IMG/VR virus record: IMGVR_UViG_3300009076_000019 | Coordinates: 1 to 38,052 of that record | DNA from: a virus | Strand: one strand, 5' to 3' | DNA length: 38,052 nucleotides | In this document: one piece after another, positions 2,898 to 13,605 of the stretch | Layout of the letters: each line of letters starts with the position of its first letter | Position numbering within the stretch: the first letter of the stretch is position 1 | Notes under the pieces: generated by a model | The model's input: the letters and a program-made list of their open reading frames with translations, nothing else | Told to the model about the DNA's origin: nothing | Database searches by the model: none | Translations under genes and position numbers: made by a program

Positions 2898-4058
2898 TCA
2901 CCTCTTCGGATAGGTCTTGGTCAGCGCGCCATTCACTGTGTGGCCGCGCTTGAGGATCAGACGCGCCAGGGCGGCGCGGTCTTTCTGGCTGTGGCTGGCC
3001 TGGCTGAGCAGGCCGAAGTAGCTGTTGGCGGTTTCGCGCAGGTCATCTGCTGGTGCTGCGGCGGTACGTTTGATGGCCTGGGCCACTGAGCGTTTCCGGG
3101 TGGTGCGCCGCCAGGGCTTGATGACGTGGCCTACGAAGTCCACGCCGCGAGCAATGGGCTGCAGGATGGTCTTGGTCGGGTTGAGGCGAGCGCCCAGCGA
3201 GGGCAGGAAAGCTTCAATCTCGGCCAACCAAGCGTTGAGCTGTTGCGGAGACTCATGCAGCAGCACGAAGTCATCCACATAGCGCACGTAGTGCTTGCAG
3301 CGCAGGCGGTGCTTCACGAACTGGTCCAGGGCATCCAGGTACACGTTGGCGAAGAACTGCGACGACAGGTTGCCGATCGGTAAACCCAGCCGCGCAGGCT
3401 GTGCAGTCAGGCGCTTGTGCTGCGGCACCCGGTTGAACAGGTGGTTGGGGCTGCGCACTTCGTAGTCGGTGCGCGGATCGTGCATCAGGATCTGTTCGGC
3501 CATGGCCAGCCACCAAGGCTCGGTGATGCGCTTGGCCAGCTGCTGGCGCAGCACCTGCTTGTCGATGGCGACGAAGAAGTTGGCAAGGTCGCCCTTGAGG
3601 TAGAAGACCGGCTTCGCCCAGTTCTGGCTGATGCTGCGGATCTTCGATTCCAGGCGCTCAGCGGCGTACAACGTGCCGCGCGTTGGTATGCAGGCGCAAC
3701 TGTCCGCTATGAAGCTGGCGTAGAAGCGCGGTGCCACATGGTTGTAAAGCAGGTGGTGGACGATGCGGTCTCGGAAGTCCGCCGCCCATACCTCCCTGGC
3801 CTTGGGCCGGGTAACCACGAAGCAGATAGAGCGGCCTGGCCGGTAGGTGCCGGCAGTCAGGTCGCTGTGCAGCTGGGTGAGATTCCGCTCTAGGTCTGCC
3901 TCGAAGGCCAGCGCGCTGGCGCTGTTGCGCTTGGAGCGCCGGCAGTCGTAGTAGGCCTGGACCAGATCGCGGAACGGGTAGGGTGCAACAGTCGAATCTG
4001 CGGACGGGGCGGACGAGACACTCGTTGTTCTTGTCGTTGTTGTTCTGATTGCCATCAT
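2898..4058 (-). CDS. DGR-type reverse transcriptase
   Basis: The 386-residue reverse transcriptase copies the TR RNA with frequent errors at adenines to make cDNA that replaces VR sequence. The palm motifs are clear: an Asp in KGDLANFF (157), GLPIGNLSSQ (225-234), which is the form typical of DGR enzymes, YVDD (260-263) and GVDFVGHVI (305-313). The N-terminal conserved block (FEADLERNL, then TYRPG) also matches this clade. There is no separate maturase domain, as expected. The start is unusual: the frame has a TGA three codons before the tandem ATG at 4058/4055, and no ATG, GTG or TTG between there and the conserved N-terminal block. Both ATGs lie inside TR, so the first 20 or so residues (Thr/Ser/Arg-rich) are encoded by TR in a different frame from the lectin. 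No good ribosome binding site is visible. Confidence 0.95.
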   Translation of the reverse strand: MMAIRTTTTRTTSVSSAPSADSTVAPYPFRDLVQAYYDCRRSKRNSASALAFEADLERNLTQLHSDLTAGTYRPGRSICFVVTRPKAREVWAADFRDRIVHHLLYNHVAPRFYASFIADSCACIPTRGTLYAAERLESKIRSISQNWAKPVFYLKGDLANFFVAIDKQVLRQQLAKRITEPWWLAMAEQILMHDPRTDYEVRSPNHLFNRVPQHKRLTAQPARLGLPIGNLSSQFFANVYLDALDQFVKHRLRCKHYVRYVDDFVLLHESPQQLNAWLAEIEAFLPSLGARLNPTKTILQPIARGVDFVGHVIKPWRRTTRKRSVAQAIKRTAAAPADDLRETANSYFGLLSQASHSQKDRAALARLILKRGHTVNGALTKTYPKR

Positions 4059-4098
4059 CGAAGTTCATGTTGAATGCGTTGTTGGCTGAGCGCTGCGA
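3998..4098 (-). repeat. DGR template repeat (TR)
   Basis: This 101-bp copy matches the three VR copies without gaps. Read on the minus strand in the lectin frame it has ten Asn codons (AAC or AAT), the usual design for A-directed mutagenesis because AAY codons cannot mutate to stop by changing A. It is not inside a target gene: its upstream side diverges right after TCGCAGCGCTCAGCC. It overlaps the reverse transcriptase start. The 27 bp at its 3' end are G+C-rich and identical in all VRs (the IMH-like segment). Confidence 0.95.
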
Positions 4099-4269
4099 CC
4101 TGTCGTGCTATCTACGTCGCCGAGCCGAAGGCAAAGCCGATCAGCCCGGAAACTGCGCGAGACCTACGCGGACGCTTTAGACCGGCGGTATCTCGGATGC
4201 GCATGGCGGTGGCCTATCGGCCAGCGGCACGACCAGATTCAAATCGCACAGACCTGATCGCCGTAACGG
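4099..4269 (-). ncRNA. Putative 5' part of the DGR TR RNA
   Basis: A 171-bp gap between avd and TR without a convincing gene. In known DGRs the template RNA extends on both sides of TR and folds, with avd upstream. A small hairpin at 4210-4223 (TGGCC, loop GATA, GGCCA on the minus strand) lies about 112 bases before TR and resembles the hairpin behind VR2. The exact ends of the RNA cannot be read from the sequence. Confidence 0.5.
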
Positions 4270-4626
4270 TCAGGCAGCGGGCGCGGTTGCGGTGTAGCGT
4301 TTCCAGGCGTTGGCCTGCTTGCCGATGGAAGCGGTCAACTCGATGGCCGCCGCATGCTGCGGAACGCTGATAAAGCGCTTTTCCTTGAACAGCCTGAGCA
4401 GGAACTCAACCACTTGGATTCGCTCAACCAGTGAGCCCAGGTGCGGCTGCTCGTCTCGCGCGGCATTGGCCCTGGCAATCAGCACCATGACCTCTATGCA
4501 TTCATCGCGAACCTTCGCGCCAAGCCCGGCCTTGAAGTCGCGCGGGATGTTCCGTGTGATATCGGTGGCCAGACTGAGCAGATCAAAGGCGAGTTTGTGT
4601 ATCGGCAGATCCGTATGCATTGCCAT
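4270..4626 (-). CDS. avd: DGR accessory variability determinant (Avd-like)
   Basis: This basic, mostly helical protein has 118 residues, the usual length of Avd, a four-helix bundle that forms a ring, binds the reverse transcriptase and TR RNA, and is needed for mutagenic cDNA synthesis. Family-like phrases are the N-terminal LPIHKLAFDLL, the IPRDFKAGLGAKVRDE segment, LIARANAA, and the C-terminal VEFLLRLFKEKRFIS with SIGKQANAWKR. I chose the ATG at 4626 because GGAAG lies seven bases upstream; a TTG at 4656 would place the start inside the VR1 hairpin. It sits between target 1 and TR, the standard DGR order. Confidence 0.9.
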   Translation of the reverse strand: MAMHTDLPIHKLAFDLLSLATDITRNIPRDFKAGLGAKVRDECIEVMVLIARANAARDEQPHLGSLVERIQVVEFLLRLFKEKRFISVPQHAAAIELTASIGKQANAWKRYTATAPAA

Positions 4627-4646
4627 CGGCTGGCTTCCATAAAGCA

Positions 4647-4664
4647 CCGGCCGCAAGCGGCCGG
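4647..4664 (-). other. Hairpin downstream of VR1
   Basis: A perfect inverted repeat with arms CCGGCCGC and GCGGCCGG and a two-base loop (or seven pairs with a four-base loop). It begins exactly 30 bp after the end of VR1 on the coding strand. Hairpins or cruciforms just downstream of the VR are known to raise retrohoming in the Bordetella phage DGR. No T-run follows, so it is not a typical terminator. Confidence 0.8.
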
Positions 4665-4678
4665 ATTAAATGAACGAA

Positions 4679-5293
4679 TTAATCAATTAGCTCGCTGCGG
4701 ACGGGGCGGACGAGACACTCGCCGTGCTTGCCGAAGTTGCCCTGATGGCCATCATCGAAGTGCACGTGGAATGCGTCGTAGGCTGAGCGCTGCGAACTCG
4801 ACCAGTACCAGCGCGCCTGGAAGGCCTCAGTGCCACCATGCTGGAAGGAAGACAGCGCGGTCTGTGCTGGCGACTCTTTGTCGTACAGGGTGCCCACCGG
4901 CAGGCTGTTGGGGTTGTCACCGTCACGGTTCCAGCAGTAGTTCTGCTCGGTGGTCGGCTTGAAGTGGCGGTACTGCAGCTCCTGCACGTCGCGGGCTGGG
5001 ATAGCCCAGTCAGTGAAGCCGCCGATATCCAGGGCCAGCACCTGCTGCGCCAGTTCGCTTCCGGCTGCGGCCATGGCCTCGGTATTGGCGCGGCTATCGG
5101 TGAAGCTGCCCGCACCTTCGATCTTGACGCCGTAATTGCCCCATTCGCCTTCCAGCTCATGCTCACGGCCGGCGGTGATGTTGAGGTAGCGCTTGCCGTC
5201 CTGCACGGTGATGCCCGAGAAGAAGCCGCCGCCGTAGGGTGCGCCGATCTCGGGAATGGTTACCGCAGAGTCCTGCTGTTGTGCTGCTTGCAT
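4679..5293 (-). CDS. DGR target 1, DUF1566/C-type-lectin-like protein
   Basis: A 204-residue target protein. The C-terminal fold has the DUF1566/lectin signature WYWSSSQRS, then the variable segment, then ECLVRPVR; the last 40 residues are encoded by VR1. An N-terminal domain of about 50-100 residues (EGEWGNYG, then ANTEAMA, then LALD) is shared with target 3, so the two are paralogues. There is no signal peptide, membrane segment or tail-fibre repeat, so I cannot say whether it reaches the virion or the cell surface. AGAGGA precedes the ATG by eight bases. It follows a terminator behind target 2. Confidence 0.92.
   Translation of the reverse strand: MQAAQQQDSAVTIPEIGAPYGGGFFSGITVQDGKRYLNITAGREHELEGEWGNYGVKIEGAGSFTDSRANTEAMAAAGSELAQQVLALDIGGFTDWAIPARDVQELQYRHFKPTTEQNYCWNRDGDNPNSLPVGTLYDKESPAQTALSSFQHGGTEAFQARWYWSSSQRSAYDAFHVHFDDGHQGNFGKHGECLVRPVRSELID
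4695..4795 (-). repeat. DGR variable repeat VR1
   Basis: The 101 bp align to TR without gaps. By eye there are 14 differences, all at positions where the TR coding strand has A. The changed codons alter residues at most Asn positions of the TR-encoded peptide (for example to Tyr, Asp, His, Gly and Phe), while WSSSQRS and ECLVRPVR are kept. Confidence 0.95.
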
Positions 5294-5383: not shown

Positions 5384-5998
5384 TCAAATGAATGCTCTGC
5401 GGACGGGGCGGACGAGACACTCGATGCTCTTGTCGAAGTTGTCCTGAAAGCCATCATCGAAGAGCATGAAGAACGCGCAGTTGGCTGAGCGCTGCGAGCT
5501 GCTCCAGTACCAGCGATCCTTGGTGAAGATGCCCGGCACGTTCAGCCAGCCGAGGTACAGCTCAGCTGCAGCTGGCAGGTAGAAGTCTTTGTGTCCATCG
5601 GCGCTGTACTTCGCTGCCGCTTCTGCCGCTGGTTGGTCACCCTCGGCCAGCAGCGCCTTGGTGTTGGCCACGCCATCACGCTTACTGGTGGCCGCTGACT
5701 CTTTCTCGTAGCCACCCCAGGCGAACTTTCCGGCGTCATGCTTCGCCCAAATCAGGTAATGGGCCGGCACCTCGCCGTGAGCTGCCACCAAGCCGCCGTT
5801 GATGCCGCCTTGCTCTGGCCAGTATTCGCCCACTGCCGGGATGGAGTGCGCGCTCGGTGCCGCCGCTGGTGCTGCAACCGGCTGCACAACGCCAACCTGG
5901 GCCAGCGCTGCAGAGATAAAGGTGGTGGCCACAACATGGGCCGGCACTGACAGCTTGAAGCCTTCCGGCGTGGTGATCTTGATCATGTCGCGTTTCAT
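5384..5998 (-). CDS. DGR target 2, DUF1566/C-type-lectin-like protein
   Basis: A 204-residue target. Residues 1-55 hold a hydrophobic helix (near VVATTFISAALAQVG) and an Ala/Pro-rich linker, then the lectin-like domain with DGVANTKAL (shared with targets 1 and 3) and the closing WYWSSSQRS ... ECLVRPVR. The last 37 or so residues come from VR2. The N-terminal region differs from targets 1 and 3, which suggests a different attachment partner. GAGGA precedes the ATG. The hydrophobic segment is too internal and too short to be a clear signal peptide. Confidence 0.92.
   Translation of the reverse strand: MKRDMIKITTPEGFKLSVPAHVVATTFISAALAQVGVVQPVAAPAAAPSAHSIPAVGEYWPEQGGINGGLVAAHGEVPAHYLIWAKHDAGKFAWGGYEKESAATSKRDGVANTKALLAEGDQPAAEAAAKYSADGHKDFYLPAAAELYLGWLNVPGIFTKDRWYWSSSQRSANCAFFMLFDDGFQDNFDKSIECLVRPVRRAFI
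5397..5497 (-). repeat. DGR variable repeat VR2
   Basis: A 101-bp gapless match to TR with 14 differences by eye, all at TR adenines. The resulting residues are strongly hydrophobic at several sites (Phe, Leu, Cys, Ile), unlike VR1, which carries more His and Gly. That suggests different ligand preference. Confidence 0.95.
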
Positions 5999-7738: not shown

Positions 7739-8130
7739 GCACTCGATTCCGGATCGTCTTCAGTGACCGATGCCATCCCCGAGTCGAGGTCGCGCAGGTC
7801 TTGAATGCTGATGGTTGTGGTGCCGTCAGTTACCGCCCACTGATTCAGCTCTAGGCTGCGGAAGGTGCCGCAGAAGTGGCGGTATGCGCCGAGGGCTGCT
7901 CGCCGGAATGACTTGGCGGCAACCGGGCCAATCGGAATGTCCTTACCCCCCCCTGTGAGAGTTAGGTTAAACGTGGCCAGGGCCGCGATACGCTTCTGAG
8001 CGGCCCGCACAGTGCTTGGCTGCAGCTCCATAAGCTCAGCCACTTCACTGATCGACTTGCCCGCCAGTGCGTTGAATATGTTCTGGTCACGCTCCGGGTT
8101 GCGTAGGCCGGCATAAAGTACGTTCTGCAT
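7735..8130 (-). CDS. Phage protein with possible HTH
   Basis: A 131-residue protein. Residues of about 27-50 (ISEVAELMELQPSTVRAAQKRI) read as a helix-turn-helix, suggesting DNA binding. The rest is an alpha/beta region ending in an acidic tail. GGAG lies about nine bases ahead of the ATG. It could be a regulator within the leftward operon, but no target is known. Confidence 0.6.
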   Translation of the reverse strand: MQNVLYAGLRNPERDQNIFNALAGKSISEVAELMELQPSTVRAAQKRIAALATFNLTLTGGGKDIPIGPVAAKSFRRAALGAYRHFCGTFRSLELNQWAVTDGTTTISIQDLRDLDSGMASVTEDDPESSA

Positions 8131-8185: not shown

Positions 8186-8515
8186 TTACTTGATGTGGGC
8201 GGTGTTCTCGTCGCCCGGATCGGCGCGTAGTTCGCGCAGGCTTTCGTTGTGAAATTGCCGCGCCACGTTTTCGCTTATCTCGAAATTGTGGCGCGGGCTT
8301 TTCAGTGCATGGGCTGAGCCTTCCGGCCCAAGGGCGTGCAGGTTGATGATCATGTTCTGGATTGCTTCGGATATGACCGTGATGCCGTGCCAGCGCATGA
8401 GGTCGGCGAGCATGGCGCGAATGCCAGGGCGCACTTTGTGGCGCAGTTCTTCCTCGCCAGCCTTTGCAGCTTTTTCAGCGGACTTCTTTGAGCGCTCCTG
8501 CGTGTTCTTGGCCAT
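8186..8515 (-). CDS. Phage protein, possible DNA-binding regulator
   Basis: A 109-residue protein with a Lys/Ala-rich N-terminus (AKNTQERSKKSAEKA), a central helical block (GIRAMLADLMRWHGI) and a C-terminal PRHNFEISENVARQF phrase known from Pseudomonas phage hypotheticals. I chose the ATG at 8515 because it overlaps the preceding stop (TGATG) and follows GGAGG. Its coding DNA contains an inverted repeat at 8259-8295 that shares 13 bp with the large inverted repeat before the replication gene. Confidence 0.6.
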   Translation of the reverse strand: MAKNTQERSKKSAEKAAKAGEEELRHKVRPGIRAMLADLMRWHGITVISEAIQNMIINLHALGPEGSAHALKSPRHNFEISENVARQFHNESLRELRADPGDENTAHIK

Positions 8516-9165: not shown

Positions 9166-9837
9166 GGTGTGGCACCTCGGTTGGTCATACCCATAAGTCA
9201 GCCGCACCAACGCGCCAGACTTCCGCAAGGTTGCCTGCCGGGCTGGCTGCTTATGGGTGCGGGGAAGGGGAAAAGAGCCCGCCGAATGAAAACTGGCGGG
9301 CTTTGAATATCCGGCTTGCGACCTTTCCGGATGACCTTCGGTGCTAGTGACACCTGGCGGCTCCGCTCCTGCGTTGCCGTGGCCCGATGTACGTGTCTGC
9401 CTCACGGCGAGCCCTGCCCAGCTGGAATGCAAAGGCATCTAACTGGGTTGTGATGCGCGATATTGCGCATCGGCCAATGATCGAAGCACCACGGCGTAAC
9501 CCGTGCTTACTTCCCGCCCGCTCGTTTCTGGTATTGGCCGTCTTGCATTAACCGGCCCAGGAGAATTGCGGGGCTTTGCTGCTCCAAGCGTTGCGTGGCA
9601 CTTGCCAACGCCTCAATCATTGGCCGATGCGCCCTGTTACCAGGCTATCGGTGCCTTACTGCCCAGGCGGCAAACCTGCTCATTACCGGGCGCTGCTTCA
9701 TGCGTTGCCCGGCGGCGTCCCGGTCGTGTTGCGGGATTAGTTGCAGGCGCAGGGCGCTTCCCCTGTGCGCATCTGGTCTAGCCAGCGTCGTTGCCGGCCC
9801 CGCGATTCACCTGCAAAGAAGGGAATGAATTACTGAA
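9166..9837 (-). ncRNA. 672-bp gene-free region with C4-like structured RNA
   Basis: No convincing gene. Minus-strand 9276-9460 has several nested hairpins: GCCGTG with CACGGC, GGTG with CACC, ATCCGG with CCGGAT, then a terminator-like stem at 9276-9302 followed by CTTTT. A further inverted repeat (ACCCATAAG with CTTATGGGT) lies over 9187-9256. The order and the sequence resemble, from memory, the C4 antisense RNA region of P1/P4-type phages, where an open frame (Ash-like) spans the RNA, as here up to 9438. C4 RNA silences a downstream antirepressor; no antirepressor is seen here. The 9480-9837 part carries no clear signal. Confidence 0.4.
9276..9302 (-). terminator. Terminator-like stem
   Basis: AGCCCGCC and GGCGGGCT enclose an 11-base loop, followed on the minus strand by CTTTTCCCC. 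It would end the putative structured RNA ahead of the small gene at 8896-9165. The T-run is short. Confidence 0.5.
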
Positions 9838-10317
9838 TTAGCAAATGAGCAATCTGCGGACGGGGCGGACGAGACACTCGTCGTTCTTGTCGTCGGTGGT
9901 CTGATTGCCAACACCGAAGTGCATGAAGAATGCGCCGTAGGCTGAGCGCTGCGAGCTGCTCCAGTACCAGCTGCTTTTGAACTTCAACAGGCCAGCATGC
10001 TTGGCGGCGAACAGCAGGTTCAGCTCCAGGGCTGCTGGAATAAATGCGCCGTCTAGCGCGAGCGCCAGCTGGGCAATGCTGCTGCCGGTTTCAGCCATTG
10101 CCAGGGTATTGGCCATGCCATCGCTGTAACTTGCAGCGCCAGGCACTTCCTGGCCGTACTTCCCCCATTCGCCTTCGAACTCTGCCTCGCTGCCCAGATC
10201 AATCAGGGCGTACTCGGCATCACCCAGCCAGTAGCGGGTGACGAAGGTGCCGCCGGCGAGTGGCTGGCCTCGCGCTGGAAGATCAGCGGCGGCGATTCTT
10301 TGTTGTGCTGTTGTCAT
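9838..10317 (-). CDS. DGR target 3, DUF1566/C-type-lectin-like protein
   Basis: A 159-residue target, the shortest of the three. It has EGEWGKYG, ANTLAMAETGSS and LALD in the same order as target 1, and the closing WYWSSSQRS ... ECLVRPVR; the last 37 or so residues come from VR3. AGAGGAACG precedes the ATG. It lies 3.8 kb from the other targets, as the first gene behind the pL-like promoter with operators, so it may be expressed at a different time. There is no signal peptide or membrane segment. Confidence 0.92.
   Translation of the reverse strand: MTTAQQRIAAADLPARGQPLAGGTFVTRYWLGDAEYALIDLGSEAEFEGEWGKYGQEVPGAASYSDGMANTLAMAETGSSIAQLALALDGAFIPAALELNLLFAAKHAGLLKFKSSWYWSSSQRSAYGAFFMHFGVGNQTTDDKNDECLVRPVRRLLIC
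9854..9954 (-). repeat. DGR variable repeat VR3
   Basis: A 101-bp gapless match to TR with 12 differences by eye, all at TR adenines. Uniquely, the two Asp codons that VR1 and VR2 keep (GAT GAT) are changed to Gly and Val. VR3 lacks the hairpin found 30 bp behind VR1 and VR2, though the AATTCATT flank is at the same distance. Confidence 0.95.
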
Positions 10318-10626
10318 GATCGTTCCTCTGTTCGGTTGTCATCCCAAGCAGCCCTGTCGCCAAGGCTGCTCAGTGATGCTGTCCGTGTTGCTGCTGCACT
10401 GGTTGCCAGGCCTTCCTCGCGGTTCGGTCATCACCTCGTCCGCCGCAGCCCCTCTGTTGGCTGGTGAAGCGGTACGCCGGTCGCCGGCTTGCAGTGCGCG
10501 TGTTATTCACCTGACTTTGTGTCGCCCCACAGGTGATGGCCGGGGCTGCCTCGCCGGTTGCCCGGCTAGCTGTTCATGGCGCGCGTTGTTAAAGAGTGGC
10601 GCCGGGTGTGGCTTCGGCGTGATTAG
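10318..10626 (-). other. Long structured leader ahead of target 3
   Basis: About 300 bases separate the pL-like promoter from the target 3 ATG. There is no good gene. The stretch is G+C-rich, with stems such as GCAGCC/GGCTGC next to the gene. It looks familiar from other Pseudomonas prophages, which is a recollection rather than a search result. It could act in antitermination or translation control. Confidence 0.5.
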
Positions 10627-10656
10627 AATATGAACCATAAGTACAAACACCGTCAA
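10627..10656 (-). promoter_or_regulatory. pL-like promoter for the leftward operon
   Basis: On the minus strand, TTGACG (10651-10656) and CATATT (10627-10632) are 18 bases apart, a good sigma-70 promoter. It overlaps both operator-like repeats and would start about 300 bases before target 3. Confidence 0.7.
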
Positions 10657-10671
10657 GAACCAAAAGTACAT
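10632..10671 (+). promoter_or_regulatory. OL-like operator pair
   Basis: Two copies of a 14-15 bp element, GAACCATAAGTACA (10632-10645) and GAACCAAAAGTACAT (10657-10671), 25 bp apart. They are imperfect palindromes (GAAC.. / ..GTAC) and match the pair beside the repressor start, which suggests repressor binding at both sites. Confidence 0.7.
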
Positions 10672-10842
10672 AATTTTTCGAAGGGCATGCAAAAGTCGCA
10701 AAGAGCACCGCCGCACCGCCGTGGTGTAACGCTTGCGTGACTCCTGTGGCTGATGTATCGCAGGCGTTACATGAGCCAAATCACAGGCGTAAAAAAGCCC
10801 GCACGGTGGCGGGCTTGTTCAGTTGGACTGAAGGGTTATCCG
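10672..10842. other. Gene-free stretch between OL and the repressor
   Basis: 171 bp with no gene that I accept. It holds an inverted repeat, GTAACGC (10726-10732) and GCGTTAC (10764-10770), and the repressor terminator. A 90-residue open frame crosses it and the operator on the minus strand but has no ribosome binding site. Confidence 0.5.
10791..10816 (-). terminator. Terminator of the repressor gene
   Basis: AAGCCCGC and GCGGGCTT enclose a six-base loop and are followed on the minus strand by a T-run. It would insulate the repressor message from the leftward operon. Confidence 0.8.
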
Positions 10843-11580
10843 TTATTCCGACTGGGTGAAGCGCGAGGTTTTCACGATTGCGCCTACGTACTGGATGTAT
10901 TGGATCTCATGCTCGGCCAGAAAGATCGGGTCATAGGCTGCGTTGACGCTATCAAAACGGTACTGGCCGTCCCGAAAGTAGACGAACTCTTTGATCATGC
11001 ACTGGCCGCCCTTGGTCTTAACCAGCACCTCGTCGCCCGATACGTATTCTTTGTTCGGCTCGACTACAACGAACTCGTTGTGCTTGATGCGGGGCTTCAT
11101 GCTGTGCCCCACAACCCGCAGGCCATAGGCGTTAGGGTCATTGCTGAAAATGCTGAGGAAGCCTTCGCCATGCCCAACAGGATATTCGAGCGCCTCAAAA
11201 TAGCCATCAGGCCCAAGCATTGCTTTACCCACTACCGGAACACTCCCTGCTCGGACTTCTAGGGGCTCCCCTTGCACGTTGCTGTCTATTGCATCAGCAA
11301 AGGTGTAGCTACCGCGATGTTCTTCCGCGCCATTGGCTTGCGGGGCGCCAATGCCGTACTGCAGCCACTCAGCTCGAACCGAGAGAGCGCTGGCTATCGC
11401 TTCCAGGTTGGCGCGCCCTGGCATCGACTCTTGGTTTAGCCACTTGCTCGCCGCCTTGGCTGTTGTGCCGGCTATAGCGGCCAGGCGAGCGCCAAGGCCC
11501 CACTCGGGTATGCCTTTTTGTTGAGCTGCCTGTTTAAGGCGATCCACGAATGGGCCGCGCACATCTTCTGACTGAACCAT
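10843..11580 (-). CDS. CI/LexA-type phage repressor
   Basis: A 245-residue lysogeny repressor with an N-terminal helix-turn-helix (about 28-50, GARLAAIAGTTAKAASKWL) and a C-terminal S24 self-cleavage domain. The hinge has the Ala-Gly cleavage pair at 111-112 (RAGSVPVVG), the nucleophile is Ser160 in GHSM, and the general base is probably Lys197 in CMIKEF. RecA filaments would trigger cleavage, so the phage should respond to SOS. I prefer the ATG at 11580 to the ATG at 11625 because the latter sits inside the operator pair; neither has a strong ribosome binding site. It is divergent from the Cro-like gene. Confidence 0.9.
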   Translation of the reverse strand: MVQSEDVRGPFVDRLKQAAQQKGIPEWGLGARLAAIAGTTAKAASKWLNQESMPGRANLEAIASALSVRAEWLQYGIGAPQANGAEEHRGSYTFADAIDSNVQGEPLEVRAGSVPVVGKAMLGPDGYFEALEYPVGHGEGFLSIFSNDPNAYGLRVVGHSMKPRIKHNEFVVVEPNKEYVSGDEVLVKTKGGQCMIKEFVYFRDGQYRFDSVNAAYDPIFLAEHEIQYIQYVGAIVKTSRFTQSE

Positions 11581-11600
11581 TTGTTCACTGTCGCACGTCC

Positions 11601-11630
11601 TTGCATGTACTTTCAGTTCCGTCATAGTAT
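11601..11630 (+). promoter_or_regulatory. pR-like promoter for the rightward operon
   Basis: TTGCAT (11601-11606) and TAGTAT (11625-11630) are 18 bases apart on the plus strand, ahead of the Cro-like gene, and overlap both operator copies. A second CATATT at 11643-11648 matches the -10 of pL by position but lacks a good -35. Confidence 0.6.
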
Positions 11631-11643
11631 GTACTTACAGTTC
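11605..11643 (-). promoter_or_regulatory. OR-like operator pair
   Basis: GAACTGAAAGTACAT (11605-11619) and GAACTGTAAGTACA (11630-11643), both read on the minus strand, 24 bp apart. They mirror the OL-like pair and lie between the divergent repressor and Cro-like genes. Confidence 0.75.
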
Positions 11644-11663
11644 ATATTCCGATTGGGGTTCCA

Positions 11664-11903
11664 ATGGTCACTCTCAAACAATGCATCGAAGCCGCCGGGG
11701 GTGTTCCGCCTGTTGCGGCTGTATGCCAGGTGAGCCTTCGGGCTGTTTACAAGTGGCTTGCGGCTGACGCCCTGCCACGTACCGAGTACACCGGCGAGAC
11801 CCGGCATGCCTCTCGGATCGCCGAACTTGCCGCTGAGAAGGGCCACCCCTTCAGCACCGATGAGCTGCTTGCCGCGGCCTCGCCAAACAAAAGCGTCGCC
11901 TGA
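11664..11903 (+). CDS. Cro-like HTH protein
   Basis: A 79-residue protein with a helix-turn-helix near GVPPVAAVCQVSLRAVYKWL and the phrase LPRTEYTGETRHASRIAEL, typical of Cro-like proteins in Pseudomonas phages. Divergent from the repressor and first in the rightward operon, it should shut down repressor synthesis during lytic growth by competing for the same operators. Confidence 0.8.
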   Translation: MVTLKQCIEAAGGVPPVAAVCQVSLRAVYKWLAADALPRTEYTGETRHASRIAELAAEKGHPFSTDELLAAASPNKSVA

Positions 11904-11967: not shown

Positions 11968-12591
11968 GTGACATCGTCCAAACCAAGACAGCTTTCGCAA
12001 ACCCGTGACCAGGTGCTGGTGGCGCATGCCGCCGAGATGATCGCGCGCACCTCGCTGAGCCAAGACAAATTCGCCCAGGCCCTGGCCGCGCAGCTGCATG
12101 CGCTGGTGCCGGGTAAGGCTACTGATGCTGGCGTGCCGGACTTCGATGCACTGGCTGCTGGCAATGACGTGGCGGCCTTCCTGAAAGGCTCGGGCAGCTG
12201 GTTGAAGCGTGTGCAGCGCTGGCTGGCTGGCGATATCGACCTGCCGAGCTGGGTTGAAGAGGCCTGGGTGCTGGCGCTGGACGCTGAGTACCGCGAGCGC
12301 TGTGTGAATGAACTGGCCAGCCGTCACGGACTGCTGGGTGCGCGTGAGCTGGGCGCAGATGCATGCCCGGTGCTGGCCTTCGGTCAGCTGATCGCCCGCC
12401 TGGGCGAGGCCGTTGAGGCCACTGGCGGTGTGCTGGCTGACGGGAAGATTGATGCGGCTGACCTTCCACACCTGCCAGAGGCAATCGAAAGGCTGCTGGC
12501 CGTTGAAAGCCGCGCCTGCGAGGTGCGCCGGCGCATGGAGAACGTGCTGGCAGAGCACACCGGCCAGCACAAGCTGCGGATCGCTAACTAA
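11968..12591 (+). CDS. Phage early protein of unknown function
   Basis: A 207-residue, mostly helical protein starting at a GTG that follows AAGGGG. The phrases GSWLKRVQRWLAGDIDLPSWVEEAWVLAL and ERCVNELASRHG are known to me from Pseudomonas phage proteins placed after Cro. It occupies the CII position, but I see no clear CII homology. An early regulatory role is only inferred from its place. Confidence 0.65.
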   Translation: MTSSKPRQLSQTRDQVLVAHAAEMIARTSLSQDKFAQALAAQLHALVPGKATDAGVPDFDALAAGNDVAAFLKGSGSWLKRVQRWLAGDIDLPSWVEEAWVLALDAEYRERCVNELASRHGLLGARELGADACPVLAFGQLIARLGEAVEATGGVLADGKIDAADLPHLPEAIERLLAVESRACEVRRRMENVLAEHTGQHKLRIAN

Positions 12592-12606: not shown

Positions 12607-12628
12607 AAGCCGGTGGCTAGACCGGCTT
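12607..12628. terminator. Bidirectional terminator-like hairpin
   Basis: AAGCCGGT and ACCGGCTT enclose a six-base loop. On the minus strand six T follow; on the plus strand the tail is CTTCTTC. It may attenuate rightward reading into the replication genes. Confidence 0.6.
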
Positions 12629-12696: not shown

Positions 12697-12732
12697 CGCG
12701 CCACGTTTTACGGTTGCGCAAAACGTGGCGCG
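12697..12732. promoter_or_regulatory. Large inverted repeat before the replication gene
   Basis: Perfect 13-bp arms (CGCGCCACGTTTT at 12697-12709; its complement at 12720-12732) with a 10-base loop. It ends 21 bp before the replication protein ATG. No T-run follows. It could be an operator or a translation-control hairpin. Confidence 0.75.
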
Positions 12733-12753
12733 GACTATGCGGAGCACTGCGTA

Positions 12754-13605
12754 ATGGCCAGGGCCCGCAATATCAAACCTTCGTTCTTCAGCAATGAGCT
12801 GCTGGCCGAGTTGCCGGCGTTTGATCGACTGCTGTTCATCGGCCTTTGGTGCCTGGCTGACCGTGAGGGGCGGTTAGAGGATCGGCCTAAGCGGATCAAG
12901 ATGGAGCTGTTCCCGTGCGACTCGTATGACGTCGACTCTGGGTTGGCTGATCTGTGCGCTGCTGGGTTCGTTACTCGCTACCAGGTTGAAGAGCATTCAG
13001 TCGTTGAGATCGTCAACTTCCACAAGCACCAGAGCCCTCATGGCTCGGAGAAAGACAGCACCTTACCGGACAAGGACGGTTATTTAACCGTTAACGAACG
13101 GGCCAAGAACGTTGTACTTACAGGTAAAAGCACGAAGGTTCACGTTAAAGGCACGTTAGTTAACGTTAAACAACCGTTAGATAACGCCCTGATTCCTGAT
13201 TCTCTGATTCCTGATTCTCCGAATCCTGATCCCCTCAAAGAACCTTCGGCATCCGCCTCGGCGCAGGTGGTGGTGAAGGTTGACCCTATGGAGGGGTTTG
13301 CCGAGTTCTGGATCCGCTACCCCAAGAAGAAATCTAAGCAGGACGCCGAGAAGGCCTGGAAGAAGCTGCAGCCCAATGCCGAACTGCGTGGAACCTTGCT
13401 GACTGCCCTTGGCAAGCAAGCCAAAACCCCAGACTGGACCAAGAGCGAAGGGCAGTTCATCCCGCTGGCCGCCACTTGGCTTAACGGCCGGCGTTGGGAG
13501 GATGAGGTGCCAGGGCCGCTGCTGGACAAGCACACGGGCTTCAACGGTGAGCGCGATTACAAGCTTGGCTTGGAGGGGAATGCCGATGGCACGTTCAAAT
13601 TCTGA
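12754..13605 (+). CDS. Phage replication initiation protein (O-like)
   Basis: A 283-residue protein of the type that recognises the phage origin and recruits a helicase loader. The N-terminal 110 residues look like a winged-helix initiator (FFSNELLAELPAFDRLLFIGLWCLADREGRLEDRP). A middle linker is encoded by repeated DNA. The C-terminal domain, FAEFWIRYPKKKSKQDAEKAWKKL, is common in phage replication proteins. I chose the ATG at 12754 (GGAG nine bases upstream); a longer frame from 12613 would run through the inverted repeat. It is followed by a DnaC-like loader. Confidence 0.82.
   Translation: MARARNIKPSFFSNELLAELPAFDRLLFIGLWCLADREGRLEDRPKRIKMELFPCDSYDVDSGLADLCAAGFVTRYQVEEHSVVEIVNFHKHQSPHGSEKDSTLPDKDGYLTVNERAKNVVLTGKSTKVHVKGTLVNVKQPLDNALIPDSLIPDSPNPDPLKEPSASASAQVVVKVDPMEGFAEFWIRYPKKKSKQDAEKAWKKLQPNAELRGTLLTALGKQAKTPDWTKSEGQFIPLAATWLNGRRWEDEVPGPLLDKHTGFNGERDYKLGLEGNADGTFKF
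13075..13235. other. Candidate replication origin with iterons
   Basis: The linker of the replication gene holds several copies of a CGTTA-type element (as in AACGTTAA and ACCGTTA), in both orientations, next to tandem CTGATTC units (13189-13230). It is the least G+C-rich stretch of the gene. As in lambda O, the origin probably lies within its own initiator gene. Confidence 0.65.

Follow-up and report, generated by a model that had tools for sequence, protein, structure and literature searches.

The window analysed here, a linear virus record of 38,052 bases (IMGVR_UViG_3300009076_000019), comes from a lambda/D3-like Pseudomonas temperate phage whose DGR lies in the early-left operon, behind a putative repressor-controlled promoter, pL. 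In the reading that we favour, with a probability of about 0.7, this early-left control region answers to cI, its leader RNA antiterminates, and the three DGR targets are rewritten during the lytic phase. The usual picture of phage DGR targets is one of late-made tail adhesins; here one target appears to be wired as an immediate-early, repressor-controlled gene with the reverse transcriptase (RT) in the same operon, and induction should therefore offer a way to test when a DGR is switched on during the phage life cycle. The leader RNA, which is compact, covarying and absent from Rfam, is located where antitermination is expected, and its host genus has good genetics.

Operators and promoters of the immunity region

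A cI-like repressor gene is flanked by the left operon, which runs on the minus strand from 10317 to about 149, and by a rightward operon (cro at 11664, a CII-like gene at 11968, replication initiation at 12613, then larger rightward ORFs). The control elements and the genes around them are as follows.

9276..9302, minus strand: intrinsic terminator-like hairpin between target 3 and the remainder of the left operon
10627..10656, minus strand: candidate pL, with -35 TTGACG, 18 nt and -10 CATATT (9/12 consensus)
10632..10645, minus strand: promoter-proximal OL operator, TGTACTTATGGTTC
10657..10670, minus strand: distal OL operator, TGTACTTTTGGTTC
10795..10816, minus strand: intrinsic terminator-like hairpin after cI, separating cI from pL
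10843..11580, minus strand: cI-like repressor with HTH and S24 peptidase (longest ORF starts at 11625)
11606..11643, plus strand: OR operator pair, overlapping pR
11664..11903, plus strand: cro-like gene (YdaS/phrog_35)
11968..12591, plus strand: CII-like activator (phrog_4834)

A preliminary description had reported an operator-like pair at 10632-10671 matching the pair at OR, and this was borne out by all four sites. The whole window of 38,052 bases contained exactly four exact matches to TGTACTTNNNGTTC, two of them between cI and cro (11606-11619 and 11630-11643, plus strand) and the other two at 10632-10670 (10632-10645 and 10657-10670, minus strand), straddling the leftward promoter. The same pattern gave 0 matches in 100 dinucleotide shuffles, a count that flatters the sites because the pattern was composed after they had been seen. 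When the window was probed with the two OR 17-mers alone (≤4 mismatches), one probe hit both OR sites and, at OL, the distal site, and the other hit every one of the four, with a single stray match besides at 13112 (4 mismatches). The operators are spaced 25 nt apart at OL and 24 nt apart at OR, and on each side the promoter-proximal operator runs into GTTCATATTC, the -10, giving the same operator/-10 overlap at pL as at pR. The further claim that both pairs overlap sigma-70 promoters held for pL and less well for pR, which has the same CATATT and, by our own reading, a weak -35, and is absent from the site list of the scan. The pL hexamers by themselves occur at chance level (1 found, 0.8 expected), and pL was the only promoter-like site in 9200-11800 in the sigma-70-like scan. 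The case for OL/pL as the putative switch is thus one of agreement between two operator sets and of relatives, not of promoter consensus.

Among a viral collection of 2.9 million contigs, only three stretches contained the full OL-pair pattern, one of which (L111) encodes a cro 58% identical and a cI HTH part 60% identical to those of the window. Locus L077 has the OR pair and one left-side operator site; L109 and L110 gave no exact operator match, yet their cI is 56-59% identical to the window's. An automated OR-versus-left comparison scored 14 for the window against a shuffle maximum of 13 and did not beat the shuffles in most other loci, so that OL elsewhere is established only case by case. 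Because a terminator-like hairpin follows cI and pL is the sole promoter-like site, putative repressor control of target-3 expression is the best inference.

As a separate observation, ARAGORN predicted a 97-nt tRNA-Ile(tat) at 8240-8336 (plus strand). This is probably a false call or a regulatory repeat, since the region holds a GCGCCACGTTTT..GTGGCGCGG inverted repeat that is also found near 12697-12735.

The third DGR target and its recurrent slot

The left operon contains the RT, its template repeat (TR), an RT-15 RNA, Avd, targets 1 and 2 and the third target, placed as follows.

2898..4058, minus strand: DGR reverse transcriptase
3998..4098, minus strand: TR (approximate limits)
4096..4286, minus strand: RT-15 RNA (Rfam RF03018)
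4270..4656, minus strand: Avd-like gene (tblastn match 4273-4626)
4679..5293, minus strand: DGR target 1 (core)
5384..5998, minus strand: DGR target 2 (core)
9823..9853, minus strand: T-rich ATTCATT tract just 3' of VR3, common to VRs of RT-bearing relatives
9854..9954, minus strand: variable region VR3 (approximate limits), with A-restricted mismatches to TR
9838..10317, minus strand: third DGR target (159 aa, with an Lcl_C/DUF1566-like domain), which lies first behind pL

The RT was identified by RVT_1 (1.1e-15) and phrog_1423 (5.9e-115), and the Avd-like gene by 56% identity to the four-helix-bundle protein of Haboob over 4273-4626; a close relative of the latter is annotated Avd in phPA-G. 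VR3 was aligned to TR over 108 positions, including 34 template adenines, and differed at 12 of these and at one G (chance of at least 12 of 13 mismatches at A, 2e-6). VR1 and VR2 each differed from TR at 14 A and one other site, and the T-rich tract also lies behind these core VRs. With 12 of 13 mismatches on template adenines, the sequence identifies the gene at 9838-10317 as a genuine DGR target, 5.8 kb from the RT. Its start codon lies 315 nt from the proximal operator, no other ORF with a ribosome-binding site comes between it and the leader, and it precedes an intrinsic terminator-like hairpin; the earlier placing of a DGR-type third target in the position of N is therefore upheld. That account had left out that the whole DGR (targets 1 and 2, Avd and RT) shares the same leftward operon, so that putative repressor control would extend to the machinery as well as to the third target.

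By eye, target 3 has no export or attachment segment and no N-like feature. Its AF2 model has a confident core (mean pLDDT 81, pTM 0.79) and is unreliable in the VR (residues 126-146 below pLDDT 50). The predicted structure matched D3 orf68, DUF1566 proteins (TMq 0.52 for one) and an S74-type phage protein (TMq 0.62), and no PDB fold was matched at E≤0.001; Pfam Lcl_C scored below its cut-off. A protein scan of viral contigs with the single window target sequence found no relative, and the scan repeated with an alignment did find relatives (best 80 of 142 loci).

Several small elements were noted around the targets. A GC-rich hairpin, GGCCGCTTGCGGCC (4647-4664, minus strand), stands behind the T-rich tract after VR1 and after the core VRs of many relatives, and is absent after VR3 and most remote VRs. 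Target 3 is separated from the next gene by about 530 nt of non-coding sequence, which folds more stably than its shuffles (z -4.0) and contains a 17-bp perfect inverted repeat (9465-9481 and 9616-9632).

Recurrence was assessed in 56 RT-bearing loci, namely those with a long RT match, duplicates included. An extra target more than 2.5 kb from the RT was present in 13 of them, and the remaining 43 had no separate far target within the stretch examined. All 13 far-target VRs differed from their own TR at 8-20 A versus 0-3 other sites, and in 10 of the 10 loci with cI visible the far target lay 529-3527 nt past cI on the same strand. By its sequence, the Pseudomonas prophage L158 repeats the exact layout of the window with an unrelated immunity and a different operator, ATAAGNNNNCTTAT. 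Three sites make up its OR (4732, 4755 and 4779) and two, 25 nt apart, its OL (7808 and 7833); a boxA at 7891 and the leader RNA come next, then the target in first-gene position, and two core targets, Avd and RT follow 1.1-4 kb further on. The fit of the remote VR of L158 is less clean, with 11 mismatches at A and 3 elsewhere. D3 orf68 and PMG1 gp68, which are 58-62% identical to target 3, are likewise the first gene behind a presumptive pL with boxA in the leader. These results point to the slot behind pL as a recurrent one for a DGR target in this phage group rather than a one-off, and the preliminary view of it as an unusual place for a DGR target is wrong within the group. Targets distant from the RT were, as Roux et al. 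(PMC8144416) state, out of reach of their own survey, in keeping with this layout having escaped notice. Among the papers listed by searches of one open-licence library, none described the layout or the leader RNA in its title or the beginning of its abstract.

The DGR of Bordetella phage BPP-1 (brt/avd/mtd) comprises an RT, Avd, TR and an adenine-restricted VR in a C-type-lectin-like target. The window has the same parts, with an RT similarity of 31%, but it differs from BPP-1 in having three targets, none beside tail genes and all in the early-left operon, one of them directly behind pL.

The structured leader RNA

The pL leader of about 300 nt, which the earlier account had passed over between promoter and target, contains a conserved structured RNA made up of a boxA, a hairpin and an H-type pseudoknot.

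10506..10603, minus strand: conserved leader RNA (boxA, hairpin and H-type pseudoknot)
10587..10597, minus strand: boxA, ACTCTTTAACA (sequence match)
10553..10566, minus strand: hairpin GCCGG-GCAA-CCGGC in boxB-like position
10524..10546, minus strand: pseudoknot stem S1 (10542-10546 with 10524-10528)
10507..10536, minus strand: pseudoknot stem S2 (10530-10536 with 10507-10513)
10342..10378, minus strand: strong hairpin just upstream of the target-3 ribosome-binding site (z -5.8)

In the window, S1 pairs GCCCC with GGGGC and S2 pairs TCACCTG with CAGGTGA. An exact pattern found the element in 28 viral stretches, and the set was then extended by a model. In an alignment of 25 sequences, 23 of them distinct, each of three S2 pairs was changed at both of its positions in 10 sequences, and the covariation score was 0.215 versus at most 0.083 when slid. 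Because selection fixed S1 in the pattern-found set, it was examined in the model-found relatives instead. The 43 distinct sequences carried GCCCCG/TGGGGC (29), GCCCG/CGGGC (4) or CTCCC/GGGAG (10) and no mixed version (0/43), which amounts to few independent events, as the versions cluster in related sequences. Both stems were perfect in 40 of the 43 distinct sequences versus 40 of 4300 shuffles; the R1 model matches L156 and L157 (27-28 bits) had been dropped as weak before these counts.

No Rfam 15 family matched 9200-10700 at E≤5. Of 298 genomes in one Pseudomonas genus, 17 gave an R1 model match, 2 of these a weak one; there was no match in the 25 genomes of another Pseudomonas genus or in 274 genomes from across the class, the two large R1 genome searches using strict filters. 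The sequence upstream of the element differs from phage to phage, and the first ORF after it falls into 32 clusters by mechanical ORF calling. A DGR target lay within 1.4 kb downstream in 6 of the 37 leader-selected loci (out of 43) that have 1.4 kb downstream. No more than 8 of the 78 target/immunity loci were matched by the strong model, and the majority of relatives therefore have a different leader. When the intervals from cI to target were scanned for boxA alone, 20 of the 61 distinct ones carried it on the operon strand and none of the 61 on the other strand. The window itself has a single exact boxA and a single strong model match, on the left side only, with no nutR-like second copy at pR.

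Lambda OL/pL-nutL-N consists of immunity-matched operator sets, a leftward promoter, boxA, and a first gene followed by a terminator. The window has two matched operator sets and the same order of leftward promoter, boxA, first gene and terminator, and both nut-type features, boxA and a hairpin in the boxB position, are present in its leader. Unlike in lambda, the first gene is a DGR target rather than an N-like protein, only two operators were found per side, and a pseudoknot follows the boxB-like hairpin. The structured RNA in the early leader also resembles HK022 put RNA, which acts alone to suppress termination according to PMC9378689; the window leader differs in its boxA plus pseudoknot. 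In rRNA antitermination, boxA is reported to bind NusB/NusE (PMC4807359). Because the boxA-led leader stands right behind pL and upstream of the terminator-like hairpin at 9276-9302, its likeliest role is that of a nut/put-like antitermination leader, followed by a slot for cargo in which a DGR target is often found. Tentatively, and at somewhat less than even odds, the boxA-hairpin-pseudoknot may constitute a new family of cis-acting antitermination RNA that works with host Nus factors and no N, freeing the first-gene cargo slot, where DGR phages would place a hypervariable protein, expressed and mutagenised only in the lytic phase.

Early-left genes in these phages repeatedly have, just before the start codon, a hairpin whose flanks are conserved (TTTCACTG...GGGAAA type), as at 10342-10378 (minus strand) in the window and at about 4331-4370 and 4660-4700 in locus L072. 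It is possibly a translation or processing element.

Proposed lytic-phase rewriting and RT-less relatives

The mechanism that we infer covers repressor binding, promoter use, antitermination, timing and ligand binding. In the lysogen, cI at OL would keep pL shut, with target 3, targets 1 and 2, Avd and RT silent. Once repressor is lost (induction) or absent (infection), pL would fire, and its transcript would carry the boxA-hairpin-pseudoknot leader followed by target 3 as an immediate-early gene. Helped probably by host Nus factors, the leader would enable RNA polymerase to read through the terminator behind target 3, and RT, Avd and targets 1 and 2 would therefore be delayed-early, made slightly later than target 3. 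All three targets would be rewritten by adenine mutagenesis during the lytic burst. Target 3 itself would be a small stand-alone variable ligand-binding protein (C-type-lectin/DUF1566-like) that does not replace N. Lytic replication itself may help editing, because in a reconstituted DGR system editing was influenced by the direction of replication, and only mildly by transcription (PMC12875486). Diversification of the targets is probably tied to leaving lysogeny, since the layout recurs in related phages. The preliminary description went too far in tying the hypervariable protein to the lysis/lysogeny decision: the layout would couple expression to repressor release, not to the decision itself.

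A serious competitor, although it falls short of an even chance, is that target 3 is mainly a receptor-binding part of the virion, transcribed early from pL only because the DGR cassette entered the left operon, with its product stored and assembled later. DUF1566 and S74 (tail-fibre chaperone type) phage proteins are among its top predicted-structure matches, and most viral DGR targets of clades 1, 4 and 6 were annotated as tail proteins by Roux et al. (PMC8144416); but target 3, at 159 aa, has no recognisable tail-attachment domain and lies outside the late operon, and its homologues are found among small unknown genes in virulent jumbo phages. The same source gives host-surface functions as typical of cellular DGR targets, which would suit moron-like expression of target 3 in the lysogen, from its own promoter or by cI read-through, with OL/pL control incidental. 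We consider this improbable given the terminator-like hairpin after cI, the lack of any other sigma-70-like site in 9200-11800 and the fact that the slot follows pL in other immunity types too.

The role of the leader is subject to a similar choice. It could be an attenuator, an sRNA or a translation-control element for the first gene, and the very stable hairpin just before the target-3 start codon agrees with this, as do other roles of boxA-type sites, the Nus complex being also described as a repressor (PMC5725501). This alternative is less likely than antitermination, because boxA stands directly behind pL and is kept whatever the first gene (32 first-ORF clusters, mechanical calling), and a terminator comes just after the first gene in the window. 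That the OL-like pair binds some other protein, such as a host regulator, or reflects chance resemblance would gain from the operator pattern having been defined after the fact; it is nevertheless highly improbable in view of the OR-probe and pattern matches in the window, the rare OL-pair pattern shared with L111 and its related cI and cro, and the two-at-OL layout recurring with a wholly different operator in L158.

Unlike the window, D3 has no RT in its record, and its T-rich post-VR tract is cut short, as in a fossil target. The RT was absent from the whole D3 and PMG1 records and from 18 of 21 target records of the RT-less type, with RT remnants in the other 3. The sequence after D3 orf68 resembles what follows the RT in Haboob; D3 is accordingly read as a deletion derivative, and this classical phage appears to carry a fossil of the DGR system. 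The VRs of RT-less phages look A-restricted against a Haboob-type TR, a result favoured by picking the best of 10 TRs for each VR, and that of phage 30-2 fits badly (14 non-A). Mutation of these targets in trans was considered and set aside in favour of RT loss, because the post-VR tract is truncated in most (29 hand-picked loci compared) and RT remnants occur in 3 of 21 records; L056 and one U7 copy keep part of the tract.

DGR-type target genes with A-biased VRs and no RT in the record were seen in D3 (orf68; L008, 6001-6561), PMG1, FBPa42 and the jumbo phage PA5oct (L009, L012 and L015); they are either fossil targets or genes that were gained once already diversified. L016 (Aurca01), L017 (D14O) and L029 retain C-terminal remnants of a DGR RT, in one case with internal stops, and judged from these remnants the three are DGRs caught decaying.
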